Assembly (NCBI RefSeq): GCF_002220095.1
Contig: NZ_CP022372.1
Coordinates: 4,002,501 to 4,066,500 of the forward strand
Reading direction: 5' to 3'
Source of the DNA: Bosea sp. AS-1
Lineage (GTDB): Bacteria; Pseudomonadota; Alphaproteobacteria; Rhizobiales; Beijerinckiaceae
DNA: 64,000 nucleotides
Numbering within the stretch: the stretch's first letter is position 1; every line of letters starts with the position of its first letter. The notes under the pieces were generated by a model. That model had not been told where the DNA came from, ran no database searches, and was given only the letters and a program-made list of their open reading frames with translations. The translations under genes were made by a program, and so were the position numbers. Positions 13,595-36,727 of the stretch are shown here, in pieces.

Positions 13595-15929
13595 CGCACG
13601 GCGCAAGCTCGATATCGTCGCCGAGACCGGACCGGCCGGCTCCGCCCGCGCCCATGATTCCGCGCCCAAGCATGTCGCCGGCGAAGCGCTCTACATCGAC
13701 GACATCGCCGCGCCTGAAGGCCTGCTGCACGCCTATCTCGGCACGAGTGACATCGCCCGTGGCCGGCTGACCTCGCTCGATCTCGAAGCGGTCCGCGCGG
13801 CGCCGGGCGTCGTTATCGTGCTGACCGCTGACGATATTCCCGGCGCCAACGACATCTCCTCGACGCATCTGCATGACGAGCCGGTCTTCGCGACCGAGAG
13901 CATCCTGTTCCATGGCCAGCCGCTCTTCGCCGTCGTCGCCGAGACGCGCGAGCAGGCGCGGCATGCCGCGGCTCTGGCGAAGGCCGATTATGCCGAGGAA
14001 GCACCGCTGATCGACATCGCCGCGTCCCGCGACGCCGGCGGCAGGCTCGTCACCGAACCGCTGAAGCTGGAGCGCGGCGATATCGCGGCTGCGCTGGCCG
14101 GGAGCCCGCACCGGCTGAAGGGCTCGATGACGATCGGCGGGCAGGAGCATTTCTACCTCGAAAGCCAGATTGCATTGGCGATACCTGGCGAGGACGAGGA
14201 TATGGCCGTGCTGGTCTCGACCCAGCATCCGAGCGAGGTTCAGCATATGGTCGCGGCCGTGCTCGGCGTCGGCTCGCATGCGGTGACCGTCGAAGTGCGG
14301 CGCATGGGCGGCGGCTTCGGCGGCAAGGAGACGCAGGCCAATCTCTTCGCCTGCGTCGCCGCGCTCTGCGCCCGCAAGCTGAGGCGGCCGGTGAAGCTCC
14401 GGCCCGACCGTGACGACGACATGGCGATCACCGGAAAGCGCCACGATTTCGTCTGCGACTACGAGATCGGTTTCGACGACGAGGGCCGCATCCATGCGGT
14501 CGATGCCGTCTATGCGGCGCGCTGCGGCTGGAACGCCGACCTCTCGGGGCCGGTGACGGACCGCGCGCTCTTCCACATGGACAATTGCTATTTCTACCCG
14601 GCGGTGCGCGCCCGCTCGGAGCCGCTCTTCACCAACACCTGTTCGAACACGGCCTTCCGCGGCTTCGGCGGACCGCAGGGCATGGTCGGGGCCGAGCGCT
14701 TCATCGAGGAGGTCGCCTACGCCGCCGGGCTCGATCCGCTGGAGGTGCGTCGGCGCAATCTCTACGGCGGGGCCGAGCGCTGCGTGACGCCCTATCACCA
14801 GACGGTCGAGGACAATATCGCGGCCGAAGTGATCGCCGAGCTGGAACGACGCTCGGATTATCAGGCGCGCAAGGCCGCGATCCGCGAGGCCAACAGGACG
14901 AGCCCCATCGTCAAGCGCGGCATCGCGCTGACGCCGGTGAAGTTCGGCATCTCCTTCACCGCGACCTGGTTCAACCAGGCCGGCGCGCTGGTGCATGTCT
15001 ATACCGACGGCACGGTCGCGTTGAATCATGGCGGCACCGAGATGGGGCAAGGGCTCTACATCAAGGTGGCGCAGGTCGTGGCACATGCCTTCGGCATCGG
15101 GCTCGATCAGGTCAAGATCACCGCGACGACGACCGGCAAGGTGCCGAACACCTCGGCCACCGCCGCCTCCTCCGGCTCCGATCTCAACGGCATGGCCGCG
15201 CTCGATGCCTGCGAGGCGATCAAGCGGCGGCTCACCGAATTCGCGGCGAAGCACTGGCAGGAGCGGCCGGAGGACATCGCCTTCCTGCCCGGCCGCGTGA
15301 AAGTCGGCGCGCGCGAAATCCCCTTCAAGGAACTGATCGCGGCGGCCTATATGGCTCGCGTCCAGCTCTCGGCGACGGGCTTTTACGCCACGCCCAAGAT
15401 CCATTGGGACCGCAAGGCCGGGCGGGGCCATCCGTTCTATTATTTCGCCTACGGCGCGGCGGCGGCCGAAGTCGCGATCGATACGCTGACCGGCGAATAC
15501 AAGGTCGAGCGCGTCGATATCCTGCACGATTGCGGGCAGTCACTGAACCCAGCGATCGACAAGGGCCAGATCGAGGGCGGCTTCGTGCAGGGCATGGGCT
15601 GGCTGACGACCGAGGAACTGGTCTGGGACAAAAAAGGGCGGCTCTGGACCCATGCGCCCTCGACCTACAAGATCCCCGTCGCCTCGGACCGCCCGCGCAT
15701 CTTCAATGTGCACCTGCTGGAAAATGCGCCGAACCGCGAGCTGACGATCCATCGCTCCAAAGCAGTAGGCGAGCCGCCGCTGATGCTCGCCATCTCGGTG
15801 CTGCATGCGCTGTCAGATGCCGTGGCGAGTGTCGGTGATTACCGGATCTGTCCACGCCTCGACGCGCCGGCGACGCCGGAGCGGGTGCTGGATGCGGTCG
15901 AGCGCGTCAGGGTGGAGGCAGGCCGATGA
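13587..15929 (+). CDS. xdhB: Xanthine dehydrogenase, large (molybdopterin-binding) subunit
   Basis: The 780-residue subunit binds the molybdenum cofactor and hydroxylates hypoxanthine and xanthine. Visible motifs are GGGFGGKE, RGFGGPQGM, GTEMGQGL and ARVQLSATGFY. The late GEPPLML contains the glutamate expected to act as general base. Length and order match bacterial XdhB. ATG 13587 overlaps the xdhA stop, indicating translational coupling, and the 3' end overlaps xdhC in an ATGA. Confidence 0.95.
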   Translation: MADARRKLDIVAETGPAGSARAHDSAPKHVAGEALYIDDIAAPEGLLHAYLGTSDIARGRLTSLDLEAVRAAPGVVIVLTADDIPGANDISSTHLHDEPVFATESILFHGQPLFAVVAETREQARHAAALAKADYAEEAPLIDIAASRDAGGRLVTEPLKLERGDIAAALAGSPHRLKGSMTIGGQEHFYLESQIALAIPGEDEDMAVLVSTQHPSEVQHMVAAVLGVGSHAVTVEVRRMGGGFGGKETQANLFACVAALCARKLRRPVKLRPDRDDDMAITGKRHDFVCDYEIGFDDEGRIHAVDAVYAARCGWNADLSGPVTDRALFHMDNCYFYPAVRARSEPLFTNTCSNTAFRGFGGPQGMVGAERFIEEVAYAAGLDPLEVRRRNLYGGAERCVTPYHQTVEDNIAAEVIAELERRSDYQARKAAIREANRTSPIVKRGIALTPVKFGISFTATWFNQAGALVHVYTDGTVALNHGGTEMGQGLYIKVAQVVAHAFGIGLDQVKITATTTGKVPNTSATAASSGSDLNGMAALDACEAIKRRLTEFAAKHWQERPEDIAFLPGRVKVGAREIPFKELIAAAYMARVQLSATGFYATPKIHWDRKAGRGHPFYYFAYGAAAAEVAIDTLTGEYKVERVDILHDCGQSLNPAIDKGQIEGGFVQGMGWLTTEELVWDKKGRLWTHAPSTYKIPVASDRPRIFNVHLLENAPNRELTIHRSKAVGEPPLMLAISVLHALSDAVASVGDYRICPRLDAPATPERVLDAVERVRVEAGR

Positions 15930-16768
15930 GCCTCGCCGCCTTCCTGACAGCGCATCGGCACGACGGCATCGTGCTGGTGCGGATCGAGGGCACTACAGGC
16001 TCGACGCCACGCGAGGCGGGCGCCAGCATGGCGGTGACGGCCTATGCCATCGCCGGCACCATTGGCGGCGGCCAGCTCGAATTCCATTGCATCGATCTCG
16101 CCCGGCACATGCTGAGCGAGGGAGCGCCCGACCAGATCCTCGACATCCCGCTCGGGCCGCAAATGGGCCAGTGTTGCGGCGGACGCGTGCGCGTTTCGCT
16201 CAAGCATTGCTCCGCTCCGGAGGCGGCCATCTTGGCCGCGCGCGAGAAGGCGGAGACGGCCGCCCGTCCCTCGATCCTCGTTTTCGGGGCCGGCCATACC
16301 GGCCGAGCCCTGGCGAAAGCGCTCGCTGCCCTGCCCTTCACCGTCACGCTGATAGACGATCGCGACGACGTCATGAGCGGGCTGCCGCCGGCCGTCACCT
16401 GCATCCGCATGGCCGATCCCGTCGACGCTGTCGCGCATGCGCCTGCAAAAGCGGCCTTTGTGGTGCTGTCGCACAGCCATGCGCTCGACTATCGGCTCGC
16501 GGAAACGGCTTTGGCGCGCGGCGATGCAGCTTATGTCGGCATGATCGGCTCGGCCACCAAGCGCGCCCGCTTCGAAGCGAGCTTCCTGCGCAGCGGCGGG
16601 CGGCGCGAAACGCTTGCGCGCCTGACCTGTCCCATCGGCGGTTCGGATGTGGACGACAAGCGTCCCGAGGTGATCGCGGCCTTGACGACAGCCGAGCTGG
16701 TGCGTTGCTTGCTTGGCCGCCGAGAGCCGGCGCGAAGGAGAAAAGCGAGACATGAATCAGCCGCGTGA
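15926..16768 (+). CDS. xdhC: Xanthine dehydrogenase accessory protein XdhC
   Basis: The 280-residue protein has the XdhC N-terminal domain (TTGSTPREAGASM, then GTIGGGQLE and MGQCCGGRV) and a C-terminal Rossmann domain (FGAGHTGRALA). XdhC proteins bind sulfurated molybdenum cofactor and insert it into XdhB; they are not part of the final enzyme. It overlaps xdhB by 4 bp, and its last 17 bp overlap the start of the transporter ATPase gene, which ties the enzyme to the importer. Confidence 0.93.
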   Translation: MSLAAFLTAHRHDGIVLVRIEGTTGSTPREAGASMAVTAYAIAGTIGGGQLEFHCIDLARHMLSEGAPDQILDIPLGPQMGQCCGGRVRVSLKHCSAPEAAILAAREKAETAARPSILVFGAGHTGRALAKALAALPFTVTLIDDRDDVMSGLPPAVTCIRMADPVDAVAHAPAKAAFVVLSHSHALDYRLAETALARGDAAYVGMIGSATKRARFEASFLRSGGRRETLARLTCPIGGSDVDDKRPEVIAALTTAELVRCLLGRREPARRRKARHESAA

Positions 16769-22057: not shown

Positions 22058-23233
22058 ATGTTCCTTCGCCTCTTCACCGATCTGCGCGCCGCCAAGGTCC
22101 CGGTGACCCTGCGGGAATATCTGACGCTGCTCGAAGGGGTGGAAGCCGATCTCGCCGAACACAGGGTCGACGAATTCTATTACCTCGCCCGCGCCACGCT
22201 GGTGAAGGACGAGCGCCATCTCGACAGGTTCGACCAGGTCTTCGCCCAGGTGTTCAAGGGCATGGAGACGCTGCAGCAGGCGATCGAGGAAGCCGGCATT
22301 CCCGAGGAATGGCTGCGCAAGCTCGCCGAGAAGTTCCTGACCGACGAAGAAAAGGCCCAGATCGAGGCGATGGGCTGGGACAAGCTCTGGGAGACGCTGA
22401 AACAGCGGCTCGAGGAGCAGAAGGGCCGCCACCAGGGCGGCAACAAATGGATCGGCACCGCCGGCACCTCGCCTTATGGCGCCTATGGCTACAATCCCGA
22501 AGGCGTCCGCATCGGCCAGGACAAGAACCGCAACTTCCGGGCCGTGAAGGTCTGGGACAAGCGCGACTTCAAGGATTTCGACGACACGCGCGAGCTCGGC
22601 GTGCGCAATCTACGCGTCGCGCTGAGGCGTCTGCGCCGCTTCGCCCGCACCGGCGCCGCCGAAGAACTCGACCTCGACAATACGATCACCGAGACCGCCA
22701 AACATGGCTATCTCGACGTGAAGCTCAGGCCCGAGCGCCGCAACGCGGTGAAGGTGCTGCTCTTCCTCGACGTCGGCGGCTCGATGGACTGGCATGTCGA
22801 GCTGGCCGAGGAGCTCTTCTCGGCGGCGCGAGCCGAGTTCAAGCATTTCGAGCATTTCTACTTCCACAACTGCCCCTATGAGCGCGTCTGGAAGGAGAAT
22901 CGTCGCCGCCACGAGCAGCAGATCCCGACCTGGGAGGTGCTGCGGACCTATCCCGCCGATTACCGGCTGGTTTTCGTCGGCGACGCGTCGATGAGCCCCT
23001 ACGAGATCGCCATGCCAGGCGGCTCTGTCGAGCACTGGAACGAGGAAGCGGGGCAGGTCTGGATGGAGCGGATGACGACGAAGTTCCCGAAATCGGTCTG
23101 GCTCAACCCCGTGCAGAAGCATCTGTGGGGCTATACCCAGTCGATCCTGCAGATCGGCGGACTGATGGGCGGGCGCATGTTCCCGCTGACGCTGGACGGG
23201 CTCGACGGTGCGATGAAGGTCCTGGCGCGGTGA
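22058..23233 (+). CDS. VWA domain-containing protein (CoxE-like)
   Basis: The 391-residue protein carries an N-terminal helical region and a C-terminal von Willebrand A-like domain with a metal-site sequence DVGGSMD near residue 246. This resembles the CoxE family, whose members often work with a MoxR-type AAA ATPase in cofactor assembly of metalloenzymes. No MoxR gene is adjacent, so the partner is elsewhere or absent. The function is not known. The start is the first ATG; no clear ribosome site precedes it. Confidence 0.85.
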   Translation: MFLRLFTDLRAAKVPVTLREYLTLLEGVEADLAEHRVDEFYYLARATLVKDERHLDRFDQVFAQVFKGMETLQQAIEEAGIPEEWLRKLAEKFLTDEEKAQIEAMGWDKLWETLKQRLEEQKGRHQGGNKWIGTAGTSPYGAYGYNPEGVRIGQDKNRNFRAVKVWDKRDFKDFDDTRELGVRNLRVALRRLRRFARTGAAEELDLDNTITETAKHGYLDVKLRPERRNAVKVLLFLDVGGSMDWHVELAEELFSAARAEFKHFEHFYFHNCPYERVWKENRRRHEQQIPTWEVLRTYPADYRLVFVGDASMSPYEIAMPGGSVEHWNEEAGQVWMERMTTKFPKSVWLNPVQKHLWGYTQSILQIGGLMGGRMFPLTLDGLDGAMKVLAR

Positions 23234-24467: not shown

Positions 24468-24788
24468 TCAGCCCTGCCGCTCGGGCGTGCGGACCACGAG
24501 GCCGTCGAGATCCTCGCGGATGCGGATCTGGCAGGAGAGGCGCGAATTCGGCCGGACATCGAAGGCGAAGTCCAGCATGTCCTCCTCCATCGGCTCGGGC
24601 TGGCCTACCTTCTCCATCCAGGCCTCATCGACATAGACATGGCATGTCGCGCAGGCGCAGGCGCCGCCGCACTCGGCCTCGATGCCCGGAACCGCGTTGC
24701 GGATCGCCGTTTCCATCACGGTGGCGCCGACTTCGCCCTCGGCCGTGCGGCTCTCTCCATGGGCATCGATATAGGTGATATTCGGCAT
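24468..24788 (-). CDS. 2Fe-2S ferredoxin, adrenodoxin type
   Basis: The 106-residue ferredoxin has the cluster ligands C40, C46, C49 and C86, the CX5CX2C-X36-C spacing of adrenodoxin-like proteins (bacterial FdxB and terpredoxin class). It likely serves as an electron donor to a monooxygenase or to Fe-S cluster assembly. No reductase or P450 gene is nearby. It is upstream of, and on the same strand as, the universal stress gene. Confidence 0.93.
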
Positions 24789-24909: not shown

Positions 24910-25248
24910 TCAAGCCGCGCAGTCGGAGCGACAGATCACGGCGCGCGCCTCGGCGGCCGCGAGCGCCAGAGCATCCATCGCCGCTTCGGTCCGGTGCTGA
25001 TCCGCCTCGGCCAGGCCATGCTCGACGGCGTCGGCAGCCTCGGCCACCTGCCAGGCGCCGATGGCCCGGGCCGCGCCCTTCAGACTGTGAGCCGCATCGA
25101 GCCGCGCCTGCGTGTCGGCGCCGGCGTGGATGGTGCGCAGATGCTTGACGCATTGCTGGGCGAAGAGCGTGAGCAGCTCACGCTCGAGCGCATGGTCGCC
25201 GCCAGTCTGGCGGGAGAGATGCGCGGTATCGATAGCCGTCTGGGGCAT
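24910..25248 (-). CDS. Hpt (histidine phosphotransfer) domain protein
   Basis: The 112-residue protein is a single Hpt domain with the phosphoaccepting histidine in AHSLKGAARAIG (H54). It would relay a phosphoryl group between a hybrid kinase and a response regulator, neither of which is in the window. Start choice is weak: ATG 25248 gives the typical domain length, while ATG 25278 and 25368 would add residues without homology. It is divergent from the giant repeat-protein gene with about 270 bp between starts. Confidence 0.85.
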   Translation of the reverse strand: MPQTAIDTAHLSRQTGGDHALERELLTLFAQQCVKHLRTIHAGADTQARLDAAHSLKGAARAIGAWQVAEAADAVEHGLAEADQHRTEAAMDALALAAAEARAVICRSDCAA

Positions 25249-25515
25249 GGGGCGAACTCGGATAACGCTTGAACGCATGATATCGAGGGACCGCGGGAGC
25301 GGCCCGACCCACTCCAAGAAGCGCCTTGATGGTGAACGAGGCGTTAACGACGTTTGTGAATCAGGCACTCAAATGGGTTTCCAAGAGTCCGGTGCTTCAG
25401 TACCCTTCCAATTGGTAAATGATGGGCGCAGTGTCCCGTTTACCCGGCCAGAGGCGGCCGGGACAGCGGCGCATGTGTTCGCGACCATCTTCAGTAGCGT
25501 GGCGAGGCGGCAACC

Positions 25516-28500
25516 ATGAATCGACCCAAGAAGCTCCAGGACCCCACTGAAGCTGCGATGTCGGCGATCGAGGAGGCGCTTCGCCTCGAACAGCCGCAGG
25601 GCGAGACGGAGACGCCGGTCGCGGCCGAACCCCGCCTGCCTGCCACCAGCGAAAACGATCTGAAGCTCGAGCTGCCGCGCGTCGAGTCCGTCGCTGCGCC
25701 GGCGGCAGCCGCGCAGACCCAGCAGGCGCCGCAGCCTCCGCGTCCCGCGATCGCGCCCGACACCAGCCGCGTCGCCAATGACGACCGCCGCGATTCCAGC
25801 TCGCTCGTCCAGGCGTTTGCCGTGCGCCCGTCACGCAAGCCCTACTGGTTCGCTGCGCTGGCTTCGATAGCCTGGCTCGGCGGCGCTGCCTTCGTGCTGC
25901 TTCATCGCTTCGGTTCCTTCAGCAACGGTCTGCCCGAGCCCGTCGCCTCCTTCGGCATCGGCGAATGGACCCTGCTCGCTCTCTCGATCGGTGCGCCGGT
26001 CGTGTTCTTCTTCGTGCTCGCAGCACTCTATCGCCGCACGCAGGAAATGCGCCTGATCTCGCGCGCCATGACCGATGTCGCGCTGCGCCTGGCCGAGCCC
26101 GAGGTCGCCGGCGCCGATTCGGTGCTCTCGCTCAGCCAGACCATTCGCCGTGAAGTCGCCGCCATGGGCGACGGCATCGAACGCGCCGTAGCGCGCGCCG
26201 GCGAACTCGAAACCATCGTCCGCGGCGAGATCTCGACGCTGGAACGCGCCTATGCCGACAATGAAATCCGCCTGCGCTCGCTGATCGACGAACTCGTCAC
26301 CCAGCGCGAGGCGGTGGTCGGCAATGCCGAGCGCGTCAAGCTCGCCATCAGCGGCGCGCATGAAGGCATCGCCAAGGATCTCGACGGGGCCAGCCGCACC
26401 ATCGCCGAGGCGATCGCACAAGCGGGCGACCGCGTCACCGGTTCGCTCGGCGCCAAGGGCGACCAGATCACCCAGGCGCTCGGCCGCGCCGGAGAAAAGA
26501 TGATCGAGGAGATCAGCGGCCGCAGCCATGACCTCGTCGAGCGGCTGCAGGTCACCTCGGGTGAGGTCTCCGAGCGACTAGCCGGCGCCAGCGACAACCT
26601 TTCGACCATGCTCGACGGCCGCGCCAAGGAGATCGCCGGCTCGCTGGAGAAGACCGGCATCGCGCTGACCGAAGGCCTCACCACCGAGGCGCAGAACGTC
26701 ACCCGCGCCATCAGCGACACCGGCATGCAGGTCGCGGAGACACTGACTGCCCGCGTCGAGACCGTCAACGAGACGCTGAAGACCACCGGCGAGACGCTGG
26801 CGAAGGACATCTCCGCCCGCGGCGTCGAGGCGGCTGAACGCTTCGAGGTCAGCAGCCGCAGCATGGTCTCGCTGATCGAAAGCCAGAGCGAGGCCTTGCA
26901 GCAGCGCCTGGCGGAATCCGGCGAGGCGCTGCGCAACGCCCTCTCCAGCGAGGGCGAGAGCGTCACCGTCCGCCTCACCGAAGTCGGACGCGGCGTCAAC
27001 AACCTGCTCACCCGCCAGAACGAAGCCATCGCAGCGCGCCTCAACGAGGTCGGCGAGAACGTTCACAGCCTCATCGGCTCGCATGGCGACACACTGGTCA
27101 GCCGCCTCAACGAAACGGTCCAGTCCGTCGACGACGTGCTGCGCGAGCGCGGCGAGTCGATCGTCCTGCGGGTCAGCGATGCCGGCCAGACGCTCGGCTC
27201 GGCCGTCGACAAGCATGGCGAGACGCTGACCCACCGCATCACCGAGGTCGCCGACCGGGTGAACGGGCTCTTCAACGAGCATGGCGGCAAGCTCGTCATG
27301 CGCCTCAACGAGACCGGCGAGACCGTCCATGCCCTGCTCGACCAGCAGGCCAGCGCACTCGTCGGCCGCGTTTCCGGCGCCGGCCGCGATCTTGCGCAGC
27401 TCGTCGGCGAGCAGAGCGACAGCGTTGTCACCCGTGTCTCGGGCGCCGGCGCCGATGTCGCTCGCCTGCTCGAGGAGCGCAGCGAGGCACTGGTCTCCAG
27501 CGTCTCGGGTGCGGTCAATGCCGTCGAGACCCGCCTGCGCGACGAGAGCGAGGTCCTGGTCAGCCGCCTGACCCAGGCCGGCCACGACGTCAGCCGCGTC
27601 GTCGGCCATGAGAGCGAGCGCATGATCTCCGGCCTCTCGGAGACCGGCGAGCGCGTCAGCGCCCTGCTCGAGGAGCAGGCCGGCGCCATGACCGTGAAGG
27701 TTTCGCAGGCCGGGCTCGAGATCAAGGACCTGCTCGGCAACGAGAGCCAGGCCGTGGCCAGCCGCATCGCCGATGTCGGTCGCTCCGTGCACGGCATCCT
27801 GTCGGAGCGCAGCGGCGCCCTGATCAGCCGCCTCGCCGAAACCGGCGAGAGCATTGACCAGAAGCTCGATGAGCGCGGCCTGGCGCTCGCCTCCCGCATC
27901 ACCGATGCGGTCGAGGGCGCGCGCGCGGCGCTGGAACAGCAGCAGACCGGCTTCCTCGCCAGCGTCGGCGAGACCGGCGAGAAGGTCGGCCAGCTGCTGG
28001 GCGAGCATCGCGAGACGATGGTCCGCGATCTCGTCAACACCGGCCGCGAGGTCCACACCCTGCTCGGCGAGCAGAGCGAAGACCTGGCGCGCCGCATGAC
28101 GGAGGCGACCCGCACCCTCACCGAGACGATCAATGTCGACGGCCGCCATGTCGCCGACCGCGTCGTCGAAGCGACCCAGGGCCTGCGCGACACCTTCACC
28201 GTCCATGCCGAGGACGCGCGCACCATGCTCGCCGGCACCGGCCGCGAGATCGTGCTGGCACTGACTCAGCAGGGTGGCCGCGTCAACGAGGCGCTCACTG
28301 CCAATGCCCAGTCGATGCTGCGCTCGGTCGAGGACCGCGCCCAGGCGCTGACGGAGGCGCTGGCGACCCGCCACGACGCCCTGACCAAGCTCTTCGACGA
28401 GCGCGGCAACGAGCTCGTGCTCGCGCTGAGCGACCAGAGCGGCCGCGTCGGCCAGGTGCTGTCCGCCAATGCCGACACCATGCTCCGCTCGGTCGAGGAT

Positions 28501-31500
28501 CGCGCCCAGGCGCTCACCGATGCCCTCGCCAGCCGCCACGACGCGCTCAGCCGCCTCTTCGACGAGCGCGGCCACGAGATCGAGTCCGCGATCGGCATGC
28601 GCCTCGGGGCCCTGTCGCATCTGTTCGACAGCCAAGGCCGCCAGGTCGAGGAAAGCCTCGCTGCACGCCTCAACGCCTTCGAGGACCTCATCGTCCATCA
28701 GGGCGGCTCGCTCACGGCCAAGATCTCGGGCGATGCGCGCGAGCTCACCGAAGCGCTCAATGCCGGCATCGCGCAGGTCGAGAAGCTGATCTCGCAGGAT
28801 GGCGTTTCGCTGGCCGACAAGGTCGGCACCCGCGCGCTGGAAGCGGCCGAGTTGCTCGCCGACCGCACCCGCGAGGCCGCCGATGCGATGGAAGGCCAGA
28901 TCAAGCTGTTCGAGGAGCGCTCCGGCGCCAAGAGCGCCGAGATCGCCGGCTCGCTCGACAGCCTGATCGCCCGCATCGACGGCAGCCTGGGCTCGCGCGC
29001 TACCGCCCTCAACGAGGCGCTGGTGGAGCGCACGGTCGATATCGCCCGCGTGCTGGCGGAAGGCGGGCGCGAGGTCACGCGCGCCCTTGCCGCCAAGGCG
29101 GACGAGATCGGCGAGGTCGTCACCTCCAAGAGCGAGTCGCTCACCCGCACGCTCAGCGACAAGGCCGACAATATCAATGCGACGCTCGGCGGCCGCGCCC
29201 TGCAGATCGCGGACACGCTCGACCAGAGCGTGGCGCGCTTCGAGGAGCGCGTCGTCGGCAGGCTCGACACGGTCTCGCACACGCTCGACACCCGGGGCGA
29301 AGAGATCGCGACGACCCTGCAGGGCCGCTCCGAAGCCATCGCTGCTGCCCTCAGCGAGCGGGCACAGGAGCTGCGCGCCCTGTTCGAGCACAATGGCAGC
29401 GGCATGGTCTCGACGCTGGCCCAGCAGAGCGAAGCCATTGCCGCCGCGCTCAACGAGCGCGCCGAGCAGCTGCGCACCCTGTTCGACGACCGAGGTCTCG
29501 GCATCGTGGCGGCCCTCGGCCGCCGGGGCGACGCCATCTCGACCGCCCTCGACGCCCGGACCGAACAGCTGCGTACCCTGTTCGAGGACAAGGGCGGCGA
29601 CATGGTCGCGGCCCTCGGCCAGCAGGGAACGGCCATCTCCAGCGCCTTCGACGAGCGCACCGAGCAGCTGCGCAACCTCTTCGAAGGCAAGGGTGGCGTG
29701 ATCGCCGAGGAGCTCGGCCGGCAGGGCAGCGTCATCTCCAGCGCGCTCGACGCGCAGGCCGACACGCTGCGGGCGATCTTCGATAGCAAGGGCGCCATCA
29801 TCGTCGATGCGCTCGAGCGCCACGGCGAGACGGTCTCCGCCTCGCTCGACGAGCGGACCGAAGCGCTGCGCTCGCTCTTCGACGCCAAGGGCAGCGGCAT
29901 GCTCGACGCGCTCGGAGACCGTGGCGAAGCTCTTTCCGCCGCCTTCGCCGCTGCAGGCGAGGCCGTGGTGCGGGCTCTGGAAGCCCGTGGCAATGCCGTC
30001 GTCGCCGGGCTGCGCGACCGCGGTGCTGCGATCGCCAACGCAGTCGAGACCTCCTCGAACGCACTGCGCGAGACGCTGGAATCCGGTTCCCGCCAGTCGA
30101 TCGAGGCGCTGGTCGGCACCAACGAGCAGCTGCGCGAGGAGCTGGGCGGCATGCTCGGCCGCCTCGGCGAAGCCAACAAGCTCATGCAGCAGATCGTCAA
30201 CGGCGCGAACAAGAACCTCGCCGCCGTCGAGAACAGCCTGTCGACCCGCGTCGGCGAGCTGCAGACGGTGATCGGCACGGTGATGGCGGAGGCCAACAAC
30301 GCCTCGCAGCAGGTCACGGCGCAGATCGCCGATCTCAAGGGCTTCTCGGAAGGCACGCTGCGCGACGCCGCGGCCCTCATCGCCCAACTCGACGACAAGG
30401 GCACCTCGCTCAGCGAGGTCTCGCAGGCCAGCAGCGCGGCGCTCAACGCCGTGGTCGGCCGGCTGGAGCAGGTCGAGGCCCGCGTCGGCAAGGCGTTGGC
30501 CGAGCGGCGCGACTCGCTGGAGGAGCTGCATGGCCTCATCGCCAGCCGCACCGAGGATGTCGAGGCGATCACCCGCTCCTTCTCCTCGCTGATCGACGAA
30601 TCGCTCGGCACGGCGGAAGCGCGTGCCCGGCAGATCGGCGCCGTGCTCTCCGACTCGGCGGAGGCGACCACCAGCGCCATCGCCCAGCAGTTCGAGACGA
30701 TCCGCGCCACGACCGGCAAGGAGCGCGAGCGCACGGCGGAAGCCCTGCGCGCGGCCTATGCCGAGGTCACGGCCGAGATCGGCGGCGAGCTCTCGAAGGT
30801 CACCGAGCGCTTCCAGAAGGCCGCGCAGGACATGCGCGGCGTTACCGGCGACATCCAGCGCGAGCTGGAAGTCACACGCGCCGAGCTGAAGCGCGGCGTG
30901 CTGGAACTGCCGCAGGAGACGCAGGAATCGACTTCGGCCATGCGCCGGGTCGTGGCCGAGCAGATCAAGGCGCTGAATGATCTCACAGAGATCGTCACCC
31001 GCGCCGGCCGTCGCGGCGACGTCTCCCTGCCGATCGATCAGGGTGGCGCTCGCCGGACGACCGTCGCCGCCAGCGCGGCCCCGGCCGCGGCGCAGCCGGC
31101 TCCTGTCTATGCGCCGGCGCCGCAGCAGCCCAAGCCCGCTGCAGCCGAAAGCCCAGCCCTGCGCCCTTCGCTTGACGCGGCGTCCGAGCCTGCTCGCAGC
31201 GAGCCGACGGCGCGGACCGAGACGAAGCCAGCGCCCCGCCCTGCCCCGGCCCAGGAAGCTCCGCGACGGACGTCCGAGCCGCAGCAGCCGGCGAAGTCCG
31301 GCTGGCTCTCGGACCTGCTGGTGCGCGCCTCGCGCGACGACAAGGCGCCGGAGGCGAGCAAACCGACGACGCATTCGATCGAGAAGCTCGACTCACTCTC
31401 GGTCGACATCGCGCGGATGATCGACCATGACGCCGCCGTCGAGCTGTGGGATCGCTACAAGCGCGGCGAGCGGAACGTCTTCACCCGCCGGCTCTACACG

Positions 31501-31716
31501 CTGCAGGGCCAGCAGACCTTCGACGAGATCCGCCGCAAGTACCGGCGCGACAACGAGTTCCGCGAGACCGTCGATCGCTATATCGACGAGTTCGAGCGGT
31601 TGCTCGGCGAGGCGTCGAAGGACGATCGCGACTCGATGGTGGCGAAGACCTACCTCACCTCGGAGACCGGCAAGGTCTATACGATGCTGGCCCACGCCAG
31701 CGGGCGCTTCGAGTAA
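25516..31716 (+). CDS. Giant hendecad-repeat membrane protein, GPR/RgsE-like polar growth protein
   Basis: The 2066-residue protein has a Pro/Ala-rich cytoplasmic head, two membrane helices (about 111-130 and 152-172) and a huge helical region. Repeats are visible by eye: about 21 tandem 22-mers from 425 to 886, a 55-residue direct repeat (916-970 and 971-1025) and six 33-mers from 1284 to 1481. All are multiples of 11, the apolipoprotein/hendecad period. A Pro/Ala-rich linker (about 1855-1945) leads to a globular C-terminus of about 110 residues. Size, topology and apolipoprotein-like repeats match GPR of Agrobacterium tumefaciens and RgsE of Sinorhizobium meliloti, which organise the growth pole. 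Orthology is inferred, not tested. A strong terminator follows. Confidence 0.85.
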   Translation: MNRPKKLQDPTEAAMSAIEEALRLEQPQGETETPVAAEPRLPATSENDLKLELPRVESVAAPAAAAQTQQAPQPPRPAIAPDTSRVANDDRRDSSSLVQAFAVRPSRKPYWFAALASIAWLGGAAFVLLHRFGSFSNGLPEPVASFGIGEWTLLALSIGAPVVFFFVLAALYRRTQEMRLISRAMTDVALRLAEPEVAGADSVLSLSQTIRREVAAMGDGIERAVARAGELETIVRGEISTLERAYADNEIRLRSLIDELVTQREAVVGNAERVKLAISGAHEGIAKDLDGASRTIAEAIAQAGDRVTGSLGAKGDQITQALGRAGEKMIEEISGRSHDLVERLQVTSGEVSERLAGASDNLSTMLDGRAKEIAGSLEKTGIALTEGLTTEAQNVTRAISDTGMQVAETLTARVETVNETLKTTGETLAKDISARGVEAAERFEVSSRSMVSLIESQSEALQQRLAESGEALRNALSSEGESVTVRLTEVGRGVNNLLTRQNEAIAARLNEVGENVHSLIGSHGDTLVSRLNETVQSVDDVLRERGESIVLRVSDAGQTLGSAVDKHGETLTHRITEVADRVNGLFNEHGGKLVMRLNETGETVHALLDQQASALVGRVSGAGRDLAQLVGEQSDSVVTRVSGAGADVARLLEERSEALVSSVSGAVNAVETRLRDESEVLVSRLTQAGHDVSRVVGHESERMISGLSETGERVSALLEEQAGAMTVKVSQAGLEIKDLLGNESQAVASRIADVGRSVHGILSERSGALISRLAETGESIDQKLDERGLALASRITDAVEGARAALEQQQTGFLASVGETGEKVGQLLGEHRETMVRDLVNTGREVHTLLGEQSEDLARRMTEATRTLTETINVDGRHVADRVVEATQGLRDTFTVHAEDARTMLAGTGREIVLALTQQGGRVNEALTANAQSMLRSVEDRAQALTEALATRHDALTKLFDERGNELVLALSDQSGRVGQVLSANADTMLRSVEDRAQALTDALASRHDALSRLFDERGHEIESAIGMRLGALSHLFDSQGRQVEESLAARLNAFEDLIVHQGGSLTAKISGDARELTEALNAGIAQVEKLISQDGVSLADKVGTRALEAAELLADRTREAADAMEGQIKLFEERSGAKSAEIAGSLDSLIARIDGSLGSRATALNEALVERTVDIARVLAEGGREVTRALAAKADEIGEVVTSKSESLTRTLSDKADNINATLGGRALQIADTLDQSVARFEERVVGRLDTVSHTLDTRGEEIATTLQGRSEAIAAALSERAQELRALFEHNGSGMVSTLAQQSEAIAAALNERAEQLRTLFDDRGLGIVAALGRRGDAISTALDARTEQLRTLFEDKGGDMVAALGQQGTAISSAFDERTEQLRNLFEGKGGVIAEELGRQGSVISSALDAQADTLRAIFDSKGAIIVDALERHGETVSASLDERTEALRSLFDAKGSGMLDALGDRGEALSAAFAAAGEAVVRALEARGNAVVAGLRDRGAAIANAVETSSNALRETLESGSRQSIEALVGTNEQLREELGGMLGRLGEANKLMQQIVNGANKNLAAVENSLSTRVGELQTVIGTVMAEANNASQQVTAQIADLKGFSEGTLRDAAALIAQLDDKGTSLSEVSQASSAALNAVVGRLEQVEARVGKALAERRDSLEELHGLIASRTEDVEAITRSFSSLIDESLGTAEARARQIGAVLSDSAEATTSAIAQQFETIRATTGKERERTAEALRAAYAEVTAEIGGELSKVTERFQKAAQDMRGVTGDIQRELEVTRAELKRGVLELPQETQESTSAMRRVVAEQIKALNDLTEIVTRAGRRGDVSLPIDQGGARRTTVAASAAPAAAQPAPVYAPAPQQPKPAAAESPALRPSLDAASEPARSEPTARTETKPAPRPAPAQEAPRRTSEPQQPAKSGWLSDLLVRASRDDKAPEASKPTTHSIEKLDSLSVDIARMIDHDAAVELWDRYKRGERNVFTRRLYTLQGQQTFDEIRRKYRRDNEFRETVDRYIDEFERLLGEASKDDRDSMVAKTYLTSETGKVYTMLAHASGRFE
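28261..28590 (+). repeat. 165-bp tandem direct repeat inside the giant gene
   Basis: Two in-frame copies, 28261-28425 and 28426-28590, encode 55-residue units sharing text such as MLRSVEDRAQALT and LFDERG. The DNA is close to identical over long stretches, indicating a fairly recent duplication within the array. Confidence 0.85.
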
Positions 31717-31741: not shown

Positions 31742-31772
31742 GAAGGCCGCCTTTGGGCGGCCTTCTCTTTTT
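31742..31772 (+). terminator. Rho-independent terminator after the giant repeat-protein gene
   Basis: A perfect 10-bp stem, GAAGGCCGCC (31742-31751) with GGCGGCCTTC (31756-31765), has a TTTG loop and is followed by TCTTTTT. This is the best intrinsic terminator in the window. It lies 26 bp after the stop codon, just before the convergent helicase-like gene. Confidence 0.92.
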
Positions 31773-31783
31773 GATCCTGCAGG

Positions 31784-32497
31784 TCAGGCCGCGATCTCGA
31801 ACCGGATATCGCCGCCGTTCAGGAAGCACATCTTGTCGAAAAGCCGCAGATCGACAGGGTTGGGCAAGCGGATATCCGTCCTGTCCGGAAACGGTTCGGC
31901 GGCGGGATCGTAGGAGCGGTCGACCTGCGAGAGCAGGACGATGATCAATCCACGTTCACGGGCCAGCGCCTTGAGGTCACGTACCTGCCGCGACAATTCC
32001 GGCGTGTCGCGGCGCTGGTCGAGCAGTTGCAGATAGTCGATCACGGCGAGCGTACCGGTGGAAGCGGTCGCCAGCGCGGTTCCGATATAATCGGCGTTGA
32101 TCGCATCGGAGCAATCGAGATCGAAGAAGCCTTCCAGCTCGCCCTTATCGAAACCGAGGGCGCGCAGACGCTCGACCACGTCGCCAGGCGTGTATTCCAG
32201 CGAGAAGTAGGCGCTTCGCCCCCCTGCCCTGGCCGCCTCGGCGGCGAGCGCGAGGCTGACAAGCGTCTTGCCCTGTCCGGGGCGCCCTGCGACGAGCACC
32301 AGATCGCCCGGTTCGAGCCGGCGATAGAGAGCCATCGCCGCGCTGGCTACGGGTTGCCTCGCCGCAAGCAGATTCCAGCTGCGATAACCTTCGGCCGCGG
32401 CGATGCGGTCGAGCGCGGCGTGGAGCGGGATCCGTTCGCGACGATGCAGGAGCTTGGCCCTGCGCTTGAGATGATGGATCGGCACCGAGAGCTTCAT
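31784..32497 (-). CDS. Stand-alone DnaB-like RecA-fold ATPase
   Basis: The 237-residue protein carries a DnaB C-terminal-type RecA core: Walker A AGRPGQGKT near residues 68-76, Walker B LAVIDYLQLLD and the sensor segment IIVLLSQVDRS. It lacks the N-terminal primase-binding domain of replicative DnaB and is about half its length. The first 45 residues form a separate helical region (HHLKRRAKLLHRRE; EGYRSWNLLAA) unlike DnaB. The start at 32497 has an AGGAGGT ribosome site. Role unknown; DNA-dependent ATPase activity is possible. Confidence 0.8.
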   Translation of the reverse strand: MKLSVPIHHLKRRAKLLHRRERIPLHAALDRIAAAEGYRSWNLLAARQPVASAAMALYRRLEPGDLVLVAGRPGQGKTLVSLALAAEAARAGGRSAYFSLEYTPGDVVERLRALGFDKGELEGFFDLDCSDAINADYIGTALATASTGTLAVIDYLQLLDQRRDTPELSRQVRDLKALARERGLIIVLLSQVDRSYDPAAEPFPDRTDIRLPNPVDLRLFDKMCFLNGGDIRFEIAA

Positions 32498-32693
32498 GCG
32501 GAGACCTCCTATTGCGGGCCGACGGCGCAATCCCTCCTCATGCGTGTGCCCGAACAGTCGGTCGGAACGTCTCGAAAGCCCCACATGCTGATGCTTCCCC
32601 GCGGGAGGGGGGCGGGCTCGGGCCAAGCCGGGCCCGCAGCCTAGATCGATTCGCCGCGCCGGAACATCGCTGGTCGAGCCGGCGGACCGCCGG

Positions 32694-33293
32694 TCAGCGT
32701 GCCCAGCGAACGATCTCGATCAGCACTTGCGACAGGGCGCGGTCGAGCGCCTGCGCCGCACCCGGCCCATCCACCGCAGCAGCCGGCACCCGGGCCGAGA
32801 ACAGCCTGGCGCGCTGAATCTTGCCGCTGGTGTCGCCGACGATCTTGGCGGTGATCTCAACCACGGCCGCACCGGAAGCGGCATCGATATTGAAGCTGCG
32901 GATATCGGTCACGAGCTGGAGGCTCGGCGTGATGCCCTGCCCCGGCGCCGAGACCGAGCCGATGCGGCTGGCGTTCTCGAAGGTCTGGATCAGCCGGGTC
33001 TGCACCAGCGCCGGCACCTGATCCGCCCACTGCGCCCCACCGAGGAAGGAGAGCGCACCACTCGAATCCTTGACGATGACACGGTCGGAATCGAGCGTCT
33101 GCACGGCGGTCGGACGGGCCACGACCATCGTGGCGCGCGAGCCGCCGACGCGCCCGAAGCCGCTCGGGGCCGTCAGGTCGAAGGTCGTCGGCGTCGGGCC
33201 GCCGCCGCACCCGGCCAGAGCGAACCCGGCTGACAGCACCAGCGCGCGAAGGCCACGACGGACCATGACAGTCTGGGGGGCTTCGATCGTCAT
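32694..33293 (-). CDS. ABC-type transport auxiliary lipoprotein (Mla/PqiC-like)
   Basis: The 199-residue lipoprotein has a signal with lipobox ALAGC and then the auxiliary-lipoprotein fold (TFDLTAP; VVARPTAVQTLDSDRVIVK). It is the last gene of the Mla-type operon, three bases after mlaD, and would act on the periplasmic side in phospholipid movement between the membranes. It takes the position that mlaC often holds; no MlaC is encoded here. The alternative start MVRRGLRA lies nine codons in. Confidence 0.87.
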   Translation of the reverse strand: MTIEAPQTVMVRRGLRALVLSAGFALAGCGGGPTPTTFDLTAPSGFGRVGGSRATMVVARPTAVQTLDSDRVIVKDSSGALSFLGGAQWADQVPALVQTRLIQTFENASRIGSVSAPGQGITPSLQLVTDIRSFNIDAASGAAVVEITAKIVGDTSGKIQRARLFSARVPAAAVDGPGAAQALDRALSQVLIEIVRWAR

Positions 33294-33296
33294 CGG

Positions 33297-34439
33297 TTAG
33301 CGGGATCCGTTGTATTGCGGGAGCGGCGGCTTGCCGCCGAAGATGAATTGCTGCGGGTTGCGTTCGAAATTCCGGAGCGTGCGATTCAGTTCCGTCAGCA
33401 CCCGTTTCGCCTCCGAGACGGTGGAATCGACATTGCGCAGCCCCGAGCCGGTAAAGCGGTTGATCCCGATGCTGATCTCGGCCGTGCGCTTGTCGAGATT
33501 GTCGGCCAGGACGCGGATCGACTTCGCCGCGTCGGCGACCTCGGTCAGAGCCGTGCGGCCATCGGGGCCGGAGGCCGTGTTCAGGAAAGCCTGCGCGCCC
33601 TTCAACACGCCTTCGACCTGATCGGCCGCGCGGTTGAGCTTCTCGGTGATCGAGGCGACGTCCTTGACCGCCTTGCTGACATCCTGGCTGGAACCGCCGA
33701 GCGCGCCGGTGAACTTGTCGACATTCTCGACGATGTTGCTGACCTTCTGCCGGTCGACCGACTTGACCACGGCCGTCAATTCTTCGCTCAACCCTTGCAG
33801 CTTCTGCGAGAGCGGCTGGATCGTATCGGCGATGTTGCCGAAGCCAGCCATCAGCTTGTCGAGCCCGTCGGAGTTCTTGCCGAGAGCCTCGGAGAATTTC
33901 TCGACGTTGCGGACGGTGTTGTTGATCGGCTCGCGGTTCTGCTTGATCAGCCCGTCGAGGGAGCCCAGCACCGTGTCGGCCCGCTGCGCGACGTTGCGGA
34001 CGGTCTCGATGATGTCCTGCAGCTCGGAACGCTCGGCGATGATCGTCGGCATCGGCTCACCGGGCTTGGCCGTCAGCACCGGCGCGTCGGGCGCGCCGCC
34101 GATAAGCTGGAGGGCGACGACGCCGGCCAGGCCCTGCGCCTCGATGCGCGCGCGGGTGTCTTCGCGGATCGGCGTGGTCGAGGCGACCTGGATGACGGCG
34201 TAGATGCGGCGCGGATCGTCCGGCTGGAGCTCGATGCTCGTCACTTCGCCGACGCGCAGGCCGTTGAACAGCACGCTCGAACCGCGGCCGAGGCCGGTCA
34301 CCGAGCCGGTGAAGATGACGCGGATGTTGTCCCTGCGTCCGGCGGCGCCGCTGTTGAACCAGTAGACGAAGCCGAAGGCGGCTGCGAGCACCGCCAGGGT
34401 AAACAGGCCGACGAGAGCGTAATTGGCACGCGATTCCAT
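33297..34439 (-). CDS. mlaD: MlaD-family MCE protein
   Basis: The 380-residue protein has one N-terminal membrane helix (about residues 9-28), an MCE domain (about 38-115; GSVTGLGRGSSVLFNGLRVG) and a long helical tail to about residue 350. MCE proteins form hexameric rings in the periplasm that bind lipids between the permease and the outer membrane. The tail is longer than in Escherichia coli MlaD and may form a tube or coiled coil. It sits between mlaF and the lipoprotein gene. Confidence 0.92.
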   Translation of the reverse strand: MESRANYALVGLFTLAVLAAAFGFVYWFNSGAAGRRDNIRVIFTGSVTGLGRGSSVLFNGLRVGEVTSIELQPDDPRRIYAVIQVASTTPIREDTRARIEAQGLAGVVALQLIGGAPDAPVLTAKPGEPMPTIIAERSELQDIIETVRNVAQRADTVLGSLDGLIKQNREPINNTVRNVEKFSEALGKNSDGLDKLMAGFGNIADTIQPLSQKLQGLSEELTAVVKSVDRQKVSNIVENVDKFTGALGGSSQDVSKAVKDVASITEKLNRAADQVEGVLKGAQAFLNTASGPDGRTALTEVADAAKSIRVLADNLDKRTAEISIGINRFTGSGLRNVDSTVSEAKRVLTELNRTLRNFERNPQQFIFGGKPPLPQYNGSR

Positions 34440-34442
34440 GGT

Positions 34443-35279
34443 CTAGCCGTTCTGCTCCCGCTTCCCGGCCGGCTGCCGGGCCATGGCGCGCTCTCCGCCG
34501 AAATAGGCTTTCAACCACGGATGGTCGGATGCCAGCATCGTTGCCAGCGGACCGACGGCGATGACTTTCTTGTCCGCCAATGCGGCGATTCGGTCGCAGG
34601 CATCATACAGGCTGTCGAGATCGTGGGTCACCATGAACACGGTCAGCCCCAGCGTCTCCTTGAGCGTGACGATGAGATCGTCGAACTCGGCCGCGCCAAT
34701 CGGGTCCAGCCCCGAGGTCGGCTCGTCGAGGAAGACGATCTCCGGGTCGAGCGCCAGCGCGCGTGCCAGCGCCGCACGCTTGATCATGCCGCCTGACAGT
34801 TCGGAGGGAGCCTTGTCCGCCGCGTCCTGGGGCAGGCCGACGAGATCGAGCTTCACCATTGCCAGCTCATCGAGCAGGTCCGGCGGCAGGTTGAGATATT
34901 CCCGCATCGGTACCTGGATGTTCTGCTTCACGGTCAGCGCCGAGAACAGCGCGCCCTGCTGGAACATCACGCCGATGCGCCGCTCCAGTCGGCGTCGCTG
35001 CTGAGGATTGAGCCTGTCGACATCCTCACCGAAGATCTCGATCGTGCCGCGCTGCTTGCGCACCAGCCCGAGGATCGTCCGGGTCAGCACCGACTTGCCC
35101 TGCCCGGAGCCGCCGACGAAACCGAGGATCTCGCCGCGCAGCACGTCGAGGTTCAGGCCATCCATGATGACCTTGTCGCCGAAGGCGACCTTGAGGTTGC
35201 GTACGCGGATGATGGCGTCGGGCTCGCCCTCGCCCCTGTGTCGTGCCGCCTCCGCGAGCCGGTTGTCATGCTCGCCCAT
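34443..35279 (-). CDS. mlaF: Mla-type ABC transporter ATP-binding protein
   Basis: The 278-residue ATPase has Walker A GGSGQGKS, the signature LSGGMIKRAALARA and Walker B IVFLDEPTSGLDP, with the family-typical GxAE after it. It powers the lipid transport complex with the permease encoded immediately upstream (2-bp gap). The C-terminus is rich in charged residues. Confidence 0.93.
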   Translation of the reverse strand: MGEHDNRLAEAARHRGEGEPDAIIRVRNLKVAFGDKVIMDGLNLDVLRGEILGFVGGSGQGKSVLTRTILGLVRKQRGTIEIFGEDVDRLNPQQRRRLERRIGVMFQQGALFSALTVKQNIQVPMREYLNLPPDLLDELAMVKLDLVGLPQDAADKAPSELSGGMIKRAALARALALDPEIVFLDEPTSGLDPIGAAEFDDLIVTLKETLGLTVFMVTHDLDSLYDACDRIAALADKKVIAVGPLATMLASDHPWLKAYFGGERAMARQPAGKREQNG

Positions 35280-35281
35280 CG

Positions 35282-36427
35282 TCAGAACTCGATCGACGCG
35301 AAGAACATGGCGAAGAGGCCGTCGACGACGATGACCATGAAGATCGCCTTCACCACCGAGGCTGTGACCTGACGGCCGAGCGATTCGGCCGAGCCCTTGA
35401 CCGCAAGACCCTCGATCGAGGCGATCAGCCCGATCACGAAGGCCATGAACGGCGCCTTGATCAGGCCGACGGCGAAGTGCTTCCAGGTGATGACCGATTG
35501 CAGCCGGGCGAGGAAGGTGTCGACGCCGATACCACCATAGAGCCAGGCGACGAGGCCGGCGCCGGTCAATCCGGCCATCGAGGAGATGAAGGTCAGGATC
35601 GGCAGCGAGATGATCAGCGCGAGGATGCGCGGCACCACCAGAACCTCGATCGGGTCGAGGCCCATCACCCGCAGCGCGTCGATCTCCTCGCGCATCTTCA
35701 TCGAGCCGATCTCGGCGGTGAAGGCCGAGCCCGAGCGACCGGCGATCATGATCGAGGTCAGCAGCACGGAAAGCTCGCGCAGGACGAGGATGCCGACGAG
35801 GTTCACCACGAAGGCGGACGCGCCGAACTGCTGGAGCTGGAAGATGCCCTGCTGGGCGACGATGCAGCCGACCAGGAAGGAGATCAGCATGATGATCGGC
35901 GCGCCGTTGAAGGCGATCAGCTCGATCTGGTTGACGAGGGACGGCCCGCGGAACTTGCGGGGACCGAGCACGACCGCGGCGGAGCCCACCACGACCTCGC
36001 CGAGGAACATCGCGCCCCCGACCATGTCGCGGCCGAAGCGCACGACAGCCTCGCCGATATTGGCGAGCACACTGACCACGCTGAAATGATCGGGCGAGCG
36101 AGGCTTGTCCTCATCGTGGACCTTGACCTCGGCGAGCAGGATGCCGTGCTCCGGCCGGCGGCTGACGATCTCGACCGAAGTCCCGTCCCTCTCCTGCCGT
36201 GCCTTGAGCCGGTTGAGGACATAGGCGCCGAGCGTATCCAGCCGCGTGACGTCCGAGAGATCGAGGCGCGCGCGCGCGCCGTTCCGCAGGCGTCCGGTGA
36301 TCTCGCCGACCAGCTTCTCGAGCCGCGGCGCGCGGTCCGCGCTCCAGGAGCCCGCCAGCGTGACGGCCAAGGTTCCTGCATCGTCGCGGAAGATCGCCTG
36401 AGGTTCGGCGGTGTCAACGCTCGGCAT
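35282..36427 (-). CDS. mlaE: MlaE-type permease with fused N-terminal STAS domain
   Basis: The 381-residue protein joins a STAS (MlaB-like) domain at about residues 10-100 (LDLSDVTRLDTLGAYVLNRL) to an MlaE permease with five or so hydrophobic segments (GRSGSAFTAEIGSMKMREE is the cytoplasmic coupling loop). Fusion explains the absence of a separate mlaB. It is the first gene of the lipid-transport operon. The open frame extends to 36652, but MPSVDTAEP at 36427 is the sensible start. Confidence 0.93.
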   Translation of the reverse strand: MPSVDTAEPQAIFRDDAGTLAVTLAGSWSADRAPRLEKLVGEITGRLRNGARARLDLSDVTRLDTLGAYVLNRLKARQERDGTSVEIVSRRPEHGILLAEVKVHDEDKPRSPDHFSVVSVLANIGEAVVRFGRDMVGGAMFLGEVVVGSAAVVLGPRKFRGPSLVNQIELIAFNGAPIIMLISFLVGCIVAQQGIFQLQQFGASAFVVNLVGILVLRELSVLLTSIMIAGRSGSAFTAEIGSMKMREEIDALRVMGLDPIEVLVVPRILALIISLPILTFISSMAGLTGAGLVAWLYGGIGVDTFLARLQSVITWKHFAVGLIKAPFMAFVIGLIASIEGLAVKGSAESLGRQVTASVVKAIFMVIVVDGLFAMFFASIEF

Positions 36428-36727
36428 CTGCCCGTGATGTCCCTCACCTGGCCGAACGGCATCTGCGGCCGCCTCGGCACCACCCAGCGCCGGAATCCAC
36501 CCCTGTTCCCTGTATTGCCGTGAGAATGCCGCTTGGCAAGCCGAGTGGCGCCTCCGGCGGCCTCCTGCACACCGACCGTTGCCGAAGCGCCATAGAAGAC
36601 GGGAGAACCGCAGAGGTTGCCCCTGGGGCAGCAGCAGCAATTCCTTAAGCAATCGTCGCGCAGGCTTTCCGAACCGTCATCTTCGGCCGTCATTGATTCG
36701 GCCCATCTGATCGAAGGCAGACCGGTC

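Follow-up and report, generated by a model that had tools for sequence, protein, structure and literature searches.

The 64,000-nucleotide stretch of the Bosea sp. AS-1 genome analysed here (contig NZ_CP022372.1, positions 4,002,501 to 4,066,500 of the forward strand; hereafter the window) carries a large gene for a repeat-rich membrane protein, positioned between a divergent gene for a histidine phosphotransfer (Hpt) protein and a convergent operon resembling lipid transporters of the MCE class (Table 1). We propose that this gene is the Bosea orthologue of gpr/rgsE, predicted to encode a membrane-anchored scaffold of the growing cell pole, a reading to which we assign a probability of about 87%. 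The GPR protein of Agrobacterium tumefaciens and RgsE of Sinorhizobium meliloti are described as having two membrane helices with the bulk of the protein in the cytoplasm, localizing to the growth pole and forming a hexameric ring, and their depletion produces misshapen or round cells (PMC8262873; PMC7327166). Branching on overproduction is a further trait expected of a growth-pole scaffold of this kind.

The original prediction, made from the letters of the window, had described two membrane helices, hendecad repeats in units of 22, 33 and 55 residues and a globular end of roughly 110 residues, all of which were recovered. Basic residues ahead of the first hydrophobic segment suggest a cytoplasmic N-terminus by positive-inside reasoning, and the second is followed by a QEMR...RLAEPE stretch common in part to S. 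meliloti RgsE and to one of the relatives described below (L141). The long rod that follows contains no proline between residues 206 and 1755. Its hydrophobicity spectrum (residues 201-1760) peaks at 3.665 residues per turn (11/3) with a power of 27.0, the highest power among 200 shuffles, evaluated on a coarser period grid, being 2.6. When the rod was compared with itself over lags 1-139, the 12 top-scoring lags coincided one for one with the multiples of 11 up to 132, with identities of 21% at lag 66, 20% at lag 22 and 19% at lag 33; the best lag outside these multiples was 15 at 11%, and the shuffled maximum was likewise 11% (five lags). The 22-, 33- and 55-residue repeat units are real and far above chance. 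Folded on 11, the rod is hydrophobic at position 2 in 90% of units and at position 6 in 89%, with glycine, alanine or serine at position 10 in 73%. Over residues 316-1525 the 11/3 component keeps a local phase of 126-188 degrees. A hendecad pattern is a hydrophobic spacing of 3-4-4. The end domain of 114 residues is all-helical in an AlphaFold 2 model (mean predicted local distance difference test score 84, predicted template modelling score 0.80), and no Pfam model matched it.

Table 1. Features of the gpr/rgsE locus and other genes of the window, in window coordinates.
Feature	Position	Strand	Basis and remarks
gpr/rgsE orthologue	25516..31716	+	Open reading frame, 2066 residues, ATG start, single terminal stop
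First membrane helix, about residues 110-130	25843..25905	+	Hydropathy
Second membrane helix, about residues 148-173	25957..26034	+	Hydropathy
Proline-free hendecad (11/3) helical rod, residues 196-1798	26101..30909	+	Periodicity; longest proline-free run; PF01442, 225 bits
99-bp (33-residue) tandem array in rod	within 29331..29900	+	Tandem Repeats Finder, 3.6-3.9 copies, 70-73% matches
Proline-rich linker, residues 1799-1952	30910..31371	+	Composition; indels here not multiples of 11
Conserved helical C-terminal domain, residues 1953-2066	31372..31713	+	Conservation; AlphaFold 2 model
Terminator-like hairpin, 10 pairs (8 G-C) and T run, just 3' of gpr	31742..31765	+	Consensus match; 0.5 expected in shuffles
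Hpt gene, divergent from gpr	24910..25368	-	PF01627, 35.3 bits (cut-off 24.6); true start probably internal
2Fe-2S ferredoxin gene beside Hpt	24468..24788	-	PF00111, 46 bits
PqiC-like lipoprotein (MpcA-like), last gene of convergent MCE operon	32694..33293	-	PF03886, 78 bits
MCE protein with long coiled-coil-like tail (MpcD-like, 380 residues)	33297..34439	-	PF02470, 54 bits; TIGR00996, 72.5 bits, below cut-off
ABC ATPase (MpcF/MlaF-like)	34443..35279	-	NF008809 (MlaF) best match, 182.6 bits, below cut-off of 441
MlaE permease with N-terminal STAS domain (MpcE-like), start uncertain	35282..36652	-	PF02405, 237 bits; PF13466 (STAS_2), 32 bits; TIGR00056 above cut-off
DnaB-C/KaiC-like ATPase, between gpr and the Mpc-like operon	31784-32626	-	PRK05973, above NCBIfam cut-off
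Xanthine/CO-dehydrogenase-type genes and XdhC-like gene	12074-16765	+	
VWA/CoxE-like gene	22058-23233		

The likely identity with GPR/RgsE put forward in the original prediction was supported by searches in both directions. The S. meliloti reference, Ak57 record CP090106.1 (3.72 Mb), was reached by tblastn with the C-terminus of the window protein, which matches a single place in this one replicon, a gene of 2089 residues annotated as 'kinesin'; it was taken as rgsE (SMc00190) because its length equals exactly the 2089 residues published for RgsE (PMC7327166). The C-terminal segments are 60% identical over 149 residues (E-value 3.5e-58) and the N-terminal segments 32% identical over 148 residues (E-value 3e-17), while a single alignment spans window residues 74-2065 with 27% identity over 2154 positions (E-value 4e-152). 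The reverse search with RgsE against the 5.84 Mb Bosea assembly (three contigs) returned five matches at E <= 0.001, all inside the gpr gene. The two proteins fall in one length class and share two N-terminal membrane helices, a rod matching PF01442 with a period of 3.66, a proline-rich linker and the C-terminal domain. Next to both genes, an Hpt gene and a 2Fe-2S gene are divergent from the scaffold gene and arranged alike. Because of the reciprocal matches, the like architecture and these common neighbours, orthology with S. meliloti RgsE is taken as established from sequence comparison, and the gene almost certainly belongs to GPR/RgsE. Downstream, the loci diverge: in S. meliloti Ak57, rgsE is followed by an IS110 transposase and cytochrome bc1 genes, whereas the Bosea lineage has the convergent MCE operon. 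By its published description, A. tumefaciens GPR (Atu1348) is likewise a protein of 2115 residues with two membrane helices, a near-continuous helix, PF01442 domains, a proline-rich region before the C-terminus and an essential C-terminus; the account differs from ours in describing apolipoprotein domains and 21-residue coiled coils, and its available text does not use the term 'hendecad' (PMC8262873). The end-domain search of the plasmid collection matched six records, four of them from Sinorhizobium; CP090106.1 is labelled pSymB but holds rgsE, folP and cytochrome bc1 genes and looks like a chromosome, as do the three other Sinorhizobium 'plasmids' of 3.52 Mb. TipN of Caulobacter also combines two membrane helices with a coiled coil; the literature consulted showed no connection to GPR, and kinship is neither claimed nor excluded here.

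The rods of related proteins differ in length mostly by steps of 11 residues. Gaps were counted in 34 Bosea-type proteins, that of the window included, excluding two loci cut at the 5' end (L035 and L038) and seven loci lacking the end domain. Across the 293 pairs with at least 70% identity, 841 of 905 rod gaps of at least 6 residues are multiples of 11, in contrast to 15 of 219 gaps in the final 260 residues leading up to the end domain. Pairwise gap counts are not independent, and events were also tallied relative to the window protein with each combination of kind, size and place entered a single time; 39 of 52 distinct rod indels of at least 6 residues are multiples of 11 (1 in 11 expected by chance, p 5e-30), compared with 0 of 12 in the 260 residues that precede the end domain. 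A second set drawn from a protein database, in which 49 of 120 proteins were usable (both anchors present), gave multiples of 11 in 86 of 117 rod gaps versus 12 of 157 in the last 300 residues. The commonest step is 22 in both sets, and the 33-residue difference between the window protein and its nearest relatives (L001 and L002) maps to the 99-bp tandem array. In the short form of the Sphingomonadales the commonest indels are 69, 29, 40 and 51 residues. The rapidly duplicating scaffold of the original prediction is thus supported in the form of quantized change in rod length. Unequal recombination between repeats may supply the 11-residue steps, and the need for an unbroken hydrophobic stripe would retain only these; as recombination between repeats with a 33-nucleotide period itself yields such steps, mutation and selection are not separated by these counts.

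The conserved end domain was found in 59 of 60 genomes of the family to which Bosea belongs, in 284 of 297 genomes of its order and in 119 of 121 genomes from the family that contains G192, a family whose rows cluster with those named Sinorhizobium and Shinella. It is also present in 106 of 289 sampled alphaproteobacterial genomes, four of the 106 being from the order of Bosea. In the samples of the two families and the order there is nearly always one match per genome, and in the alphaproteobacterial sample usually one; a second match was observed in seven genomes (G061, G266, G304, G369, G446, G500 and G577), some of these weaker and on another contig. The scan of genome contigs yielded 42 Bosea-type loci, the nearest of which (L001 and L002) are 90-91% identical in the best segment, and four further sets of 20 loci, hand-picked rather than drawn at random, were studied for context. 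Outside the order, 18 of 20 proteins have 662-1216 residues and the other two 2014 and 2416. Parvibaculum (Plav_2516), Alteraurantiacibacter and kin, and Sphingomonas are named examples of the family beyond the order. The short relatives (in Parvibaculum, Sphingomonas and as an Altererythrobacter-/Aurantiacibacter-type 'ATPase') resemble the window protein in their helical rod and C-terminal domain, in two N-terminal membrane helices (called in 14 of 20 with a plain hydropathy threshold) and, in some, in a divergent Hpt gene. They differ in a rod period of about 3.57 rather than 3.66, the medians being 3.575 (3.552-3.620) in the 20 loci outside the order and 3.663 (3.601-3.667) in 20 loci within it, with slightly overlapping ranges, and in that their genomes usually carry MreB. 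A tree of the end domain places all 55 rows of the order on one side of a branch with support 100/99; its closest neighbours in the tree are f61 (Parvibaculum-like), f172 and a cluster formed by f174, f55 and f167 (branch 92/92, not starred). Some of this distribution had been described before: Krol et al. reported homologues in all families of the Rhizobiales and distant ones in Emcibacterales and Rhodospirillales (PMC7327166).

A search of the Bosea genome with PF06723 gave three matches, two to Hsp70 and one to FtsA, and thus no MreB. This agrees with descriptions of the Rhizobiales as being without MreB or a Rod complex (PMC10259793; PMC8546619) and does not demonstrate polar growth; unipolar tip growth in Bosea, drawn by the original prediction from the identity of the gene, is something we infer only. 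Although the order is usually described as lacking MreB, 33 of its 297 genomes carry a strong match (E-value 6.8e-76 or better), and one more has a fragment. The end domain occurs in 32 of these 33 genomes, in open frames of 170-1498 residues, some cut by contig ends. Frames of more than 1500 residues, measured from stop to stop and so able to exceed the protein length, were found in 129 of 176 listed MreB-less genomes versus none of the 32 with MreB; the 176 are a part of the MreB-less genomes, comprising best matches and 31 rows chosen as distant ones. Many MreB-less genomes retain short forms, and there is no exception in the other direction within the order. Beyond the order, MreB (E < 1e-50) accompanies the end domain in 95 of 102 genomes. 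The short form is therefore often found together with MreB, and within the order long rods are associated with the loss of MreB, in genomes that are not independent. The spread of the domain suggests an origin of the family before MreB-free growth. An end-domain gene tree labelled for MreB had too few columns to order the lineages, and 11 of its 43 'MreB-less' rows come from genomes or records without an MreB test.

A neighbour often kept beside the scaffold gene is the divergent Hpt gene, whose product in the window carries its histidine in an AHSLKG motif. A profile built from scaffold-linked Hpts, and so trained in part on the loci searched, recognized a single Hpt across the entire window; over 86 loci (1.47 Mb) it detected 65 genes, every one of them directly upstream of the scaffold gene and divergent from it. 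Hpt was present in 39 of 42 Bosea-type loci (the remaining three being without upstream sequence), in 15 of 20 loci of the order (L120-139), in 3 of 3 Rhizobiaceae records among five plasmid-collection matches and, outside the order, in 7 of 20 loci (L140-144, L156 and L157) as well as in Sphingomonas L162. In a second set from the order it was found in 19 of 20 MreB-bearing loci (L172-191), the exception, L182, having only 4.2 kb of sequence, and in 13 of 20 further loci (L192-211). The catalytic histidine is retained in 93 of 98 Hpts, that of the window included, and is lost in L193, L209 and three of Sphingomonadales type (L156, L157 and L162). In these last three, Hpt is kept beside a short GPR relative with the histidine replaced (W, M, L), hinting at a binding role without phosphotransfer. 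From gene order, the adjacent Hpt protein would be the best candidate for signal input to the scaffold. The available text of the GPR and RgsE reports does not mention Hpt (PMC8262873; PMC7327166).

On the other side of gpr, the convergent operon resembles the Mpc lipid transporter (MpcEFDA) described in 2025 in Brucella abortus, with the same set of a STAS-MlaE permease, an MlaF ATPase, an MCE protein with a helical tail and a PqiC-like lipoprotein, arranged in the same sequence (PMC12436622). In Bosea the operon adjoins gpr, whereas the available text of the Brucella study makes no mention of RgsE or GPR (PMC12436622). Among the 42 Bosea-type loci, 34 have an MlaF gene downstream and on the opposite strand, and most of the 8 without it are cut short; the gene is so placed in 12 of 20 loci of the order and in 7 of 20 outside it; two further loci outside the order have only an ABC-ATPase match of 29-33%. 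In the second set from the order the counts are 8 of 20 and 2 of 20, with 2 more on the same strand. The transporter may be a client or co-working system of the scaffold, as gene order would suggest. The linkage of Hpt, GPR and Mpc looks new: no report of it appeared among the papers listed by literature searches on Hpt or MCE/MlaE with polar growth and on the locus tags, which mostly did not cover subscription journals. The DnaB-C/KaiC-like ATPase gene accompanies gpr in 12 of the 42 Bosea-type loci; the remaining 44 loci do not have it nearby. A scan of the intergenic gap between Hpt and gpr found no promoter. An antisense open reading frame of 1598 residues within gpr (26578-31374, minus strand) was rejected as a gene; across 35 homologues of Bosea type, two of which are truncated 5', the same frame is open to a varying extent, from 763 to 2183 codons, marking it as a by-product of codon usage.

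In the proposed mechanism, the two N-terminal helices would pin the protein to the inner membrane, and the rod would form a long cytoplasmic coiled coil of about 1600 residues, about 240 nm when fully extended at 0.15 nm per residue. This register-locked rod would carry the C-terminal domain on its flexible linker, and the domain may dock partners from the envelope-building machinery. Published C-terminal deletions of GPR fit such a docking domain in part only. The last 10 residues are required for normal shape and not for paired foci, and a GPR lacking 332 C-terminal residues keeps its foci and loses function (PMC8262873). Less simply fitted to the proposed mechanism, a GPR lacking 221 residues loses both foci and function on complementation, and a C-terminal green fluorescent protein fusion blocks paired foci (PMC8262873). 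Further points weigh against the overall reading. The similarity of the N-terminal segment to RgsE is weak, and kinship to A. tumefaciens GPR itself would follow through RgsE, which is reported to be 42% identical to it (PMC7327166). The polar scaffold role and the coiled-coil rod in Bosea are predictions, the modelled structure covering the end domain alone, and the coiled-coil matches, PF01442 among them, are partly compositional, as ZorA and SpiroCoCo models also score. Only genetic evidence ties the scaffold to the lipid transporter, and the operon is not beside rgsE in S. meliloti. In Brucella, pull-down of MpcA specifically recovered MpcE, MpcF and MpcD (PMC12436622), and RgsE is called essential (PMC9938171), whereas mpc deletion strains live (PMC12436622).

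The nature of the rod and the reason for its length each admit another explanation. The repeats could instead wrap lipid at the pole in the manner of an apolipoprotein, as the score of the window protein against PF01442 (Apolipoprotein A1/A4/E; 225 bits against a cut-off of 90) and the MCE lipid transporter adjoining the gene would suggest; moreover, a PDB search yielded just two sequences at E <= 0.001, both of them apolipoprotein A-IV, and the authors of the GPR study favour lipid sorting (PMC8262873). The rod, however, has a unit of 11 and a narrow hydrophobic stripe, with two strongly hydrophobic positions of 11 and a glycine/alanine/serine position, and its near-constant register over more than 1000 residues better suits a coiled coil, making a lipid-wrapping rod unlikely. 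Apolipoprotein 22-mers are usually punctuated by proline and have a broad lipid face. Filing the protein as an apolipoprotein was dropped for the absence of such proline-punctuated 22-residue helices. It is similarly doubtful that the great length of the rod reflects a replacement of MreB by long GPR. The distribution of frames above 1500 residues within the order would fit such a replacement, as would a suggestive sister group in which MreB-bearing L172-174 encode 1210-1383 residues and MreB-less L211 encodes 1962. L211 is, however, a long branch of unsure place, and short forms occur in many MreB-less members, among them f31, f34 and f51 as well as G111, G196 and G287, the last three within families otherwise bearing MreB. 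Outside the order MreB is present in most genomes with the end domain, and some long forms (L153 and L159) coexist with it. The genomes also lack independence, and resolution in the gene tree is poor.

A stronger challenge concerns the neighbours, since Hpt and Mpc could be bystanders in a gene order that is merely old and has no bearing on function, which we consider a real possibility somewhat short of an even chance. Hpt was not found upstream in 5 of 20 (L120-139) and 7 of 20 (L192-211) loci of the order or in 13 of 20 outside it, no Mpc lies beside rgsE in two Sinorhizobium records, and the catalytic histidine has been lost in three Sphingomonadales-type Hpts and two in the order. Simple inertia of gene order sits less well, however, with the loci outside the order, where Hpt and the convergent MlaE-MlaF-MlaD set each persist in 7 of 20 while other window neighbours are found in at most one (Usp 0, DnaB-like helicase 0, VWA gene 1, ferredoxin 1), nor does it account readily for the strict placement of the 65 profile-detected Hpt genes or the retention of the histidine in 93 of 98 Hpts.

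Taken further, and with little confidence, GPR could be seen as the expanded form of an old alphaproteobacterial envelope-organizing module of Hpt, scaffold and Mpc that predates the loss of MreB. Hpt would bind the scaffold and couple a phosphorelay to the envelope-building site, and the C-terminal domain would gather lipid and wall machinery; after MreB was lost in parts of the Rhizobiales, the rod would have lengthened by register-preserving 11-residue steps into a cytoplasmic ruler of growth-ring geometry. Which partners GPR has, and whether it is positioned by lipids or by contacts with proteins, are questions raised by the authors of the GPR study (PMC8262873). The gene order described here offers two concrete, removable candidates for growth-pole control, Hpt and the lipid transporter, and the linking of the scaffold by neighbourhood to a signalling protein and a lipid pump gives a hint at how tip growth may be controlled. 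The 11-residue quantization provides a natural series of rod lengths for asking whether rod length sets pole geometry, and relatives that still have MreB, such as Parvibaculum, offer a way to study what the family originally did.

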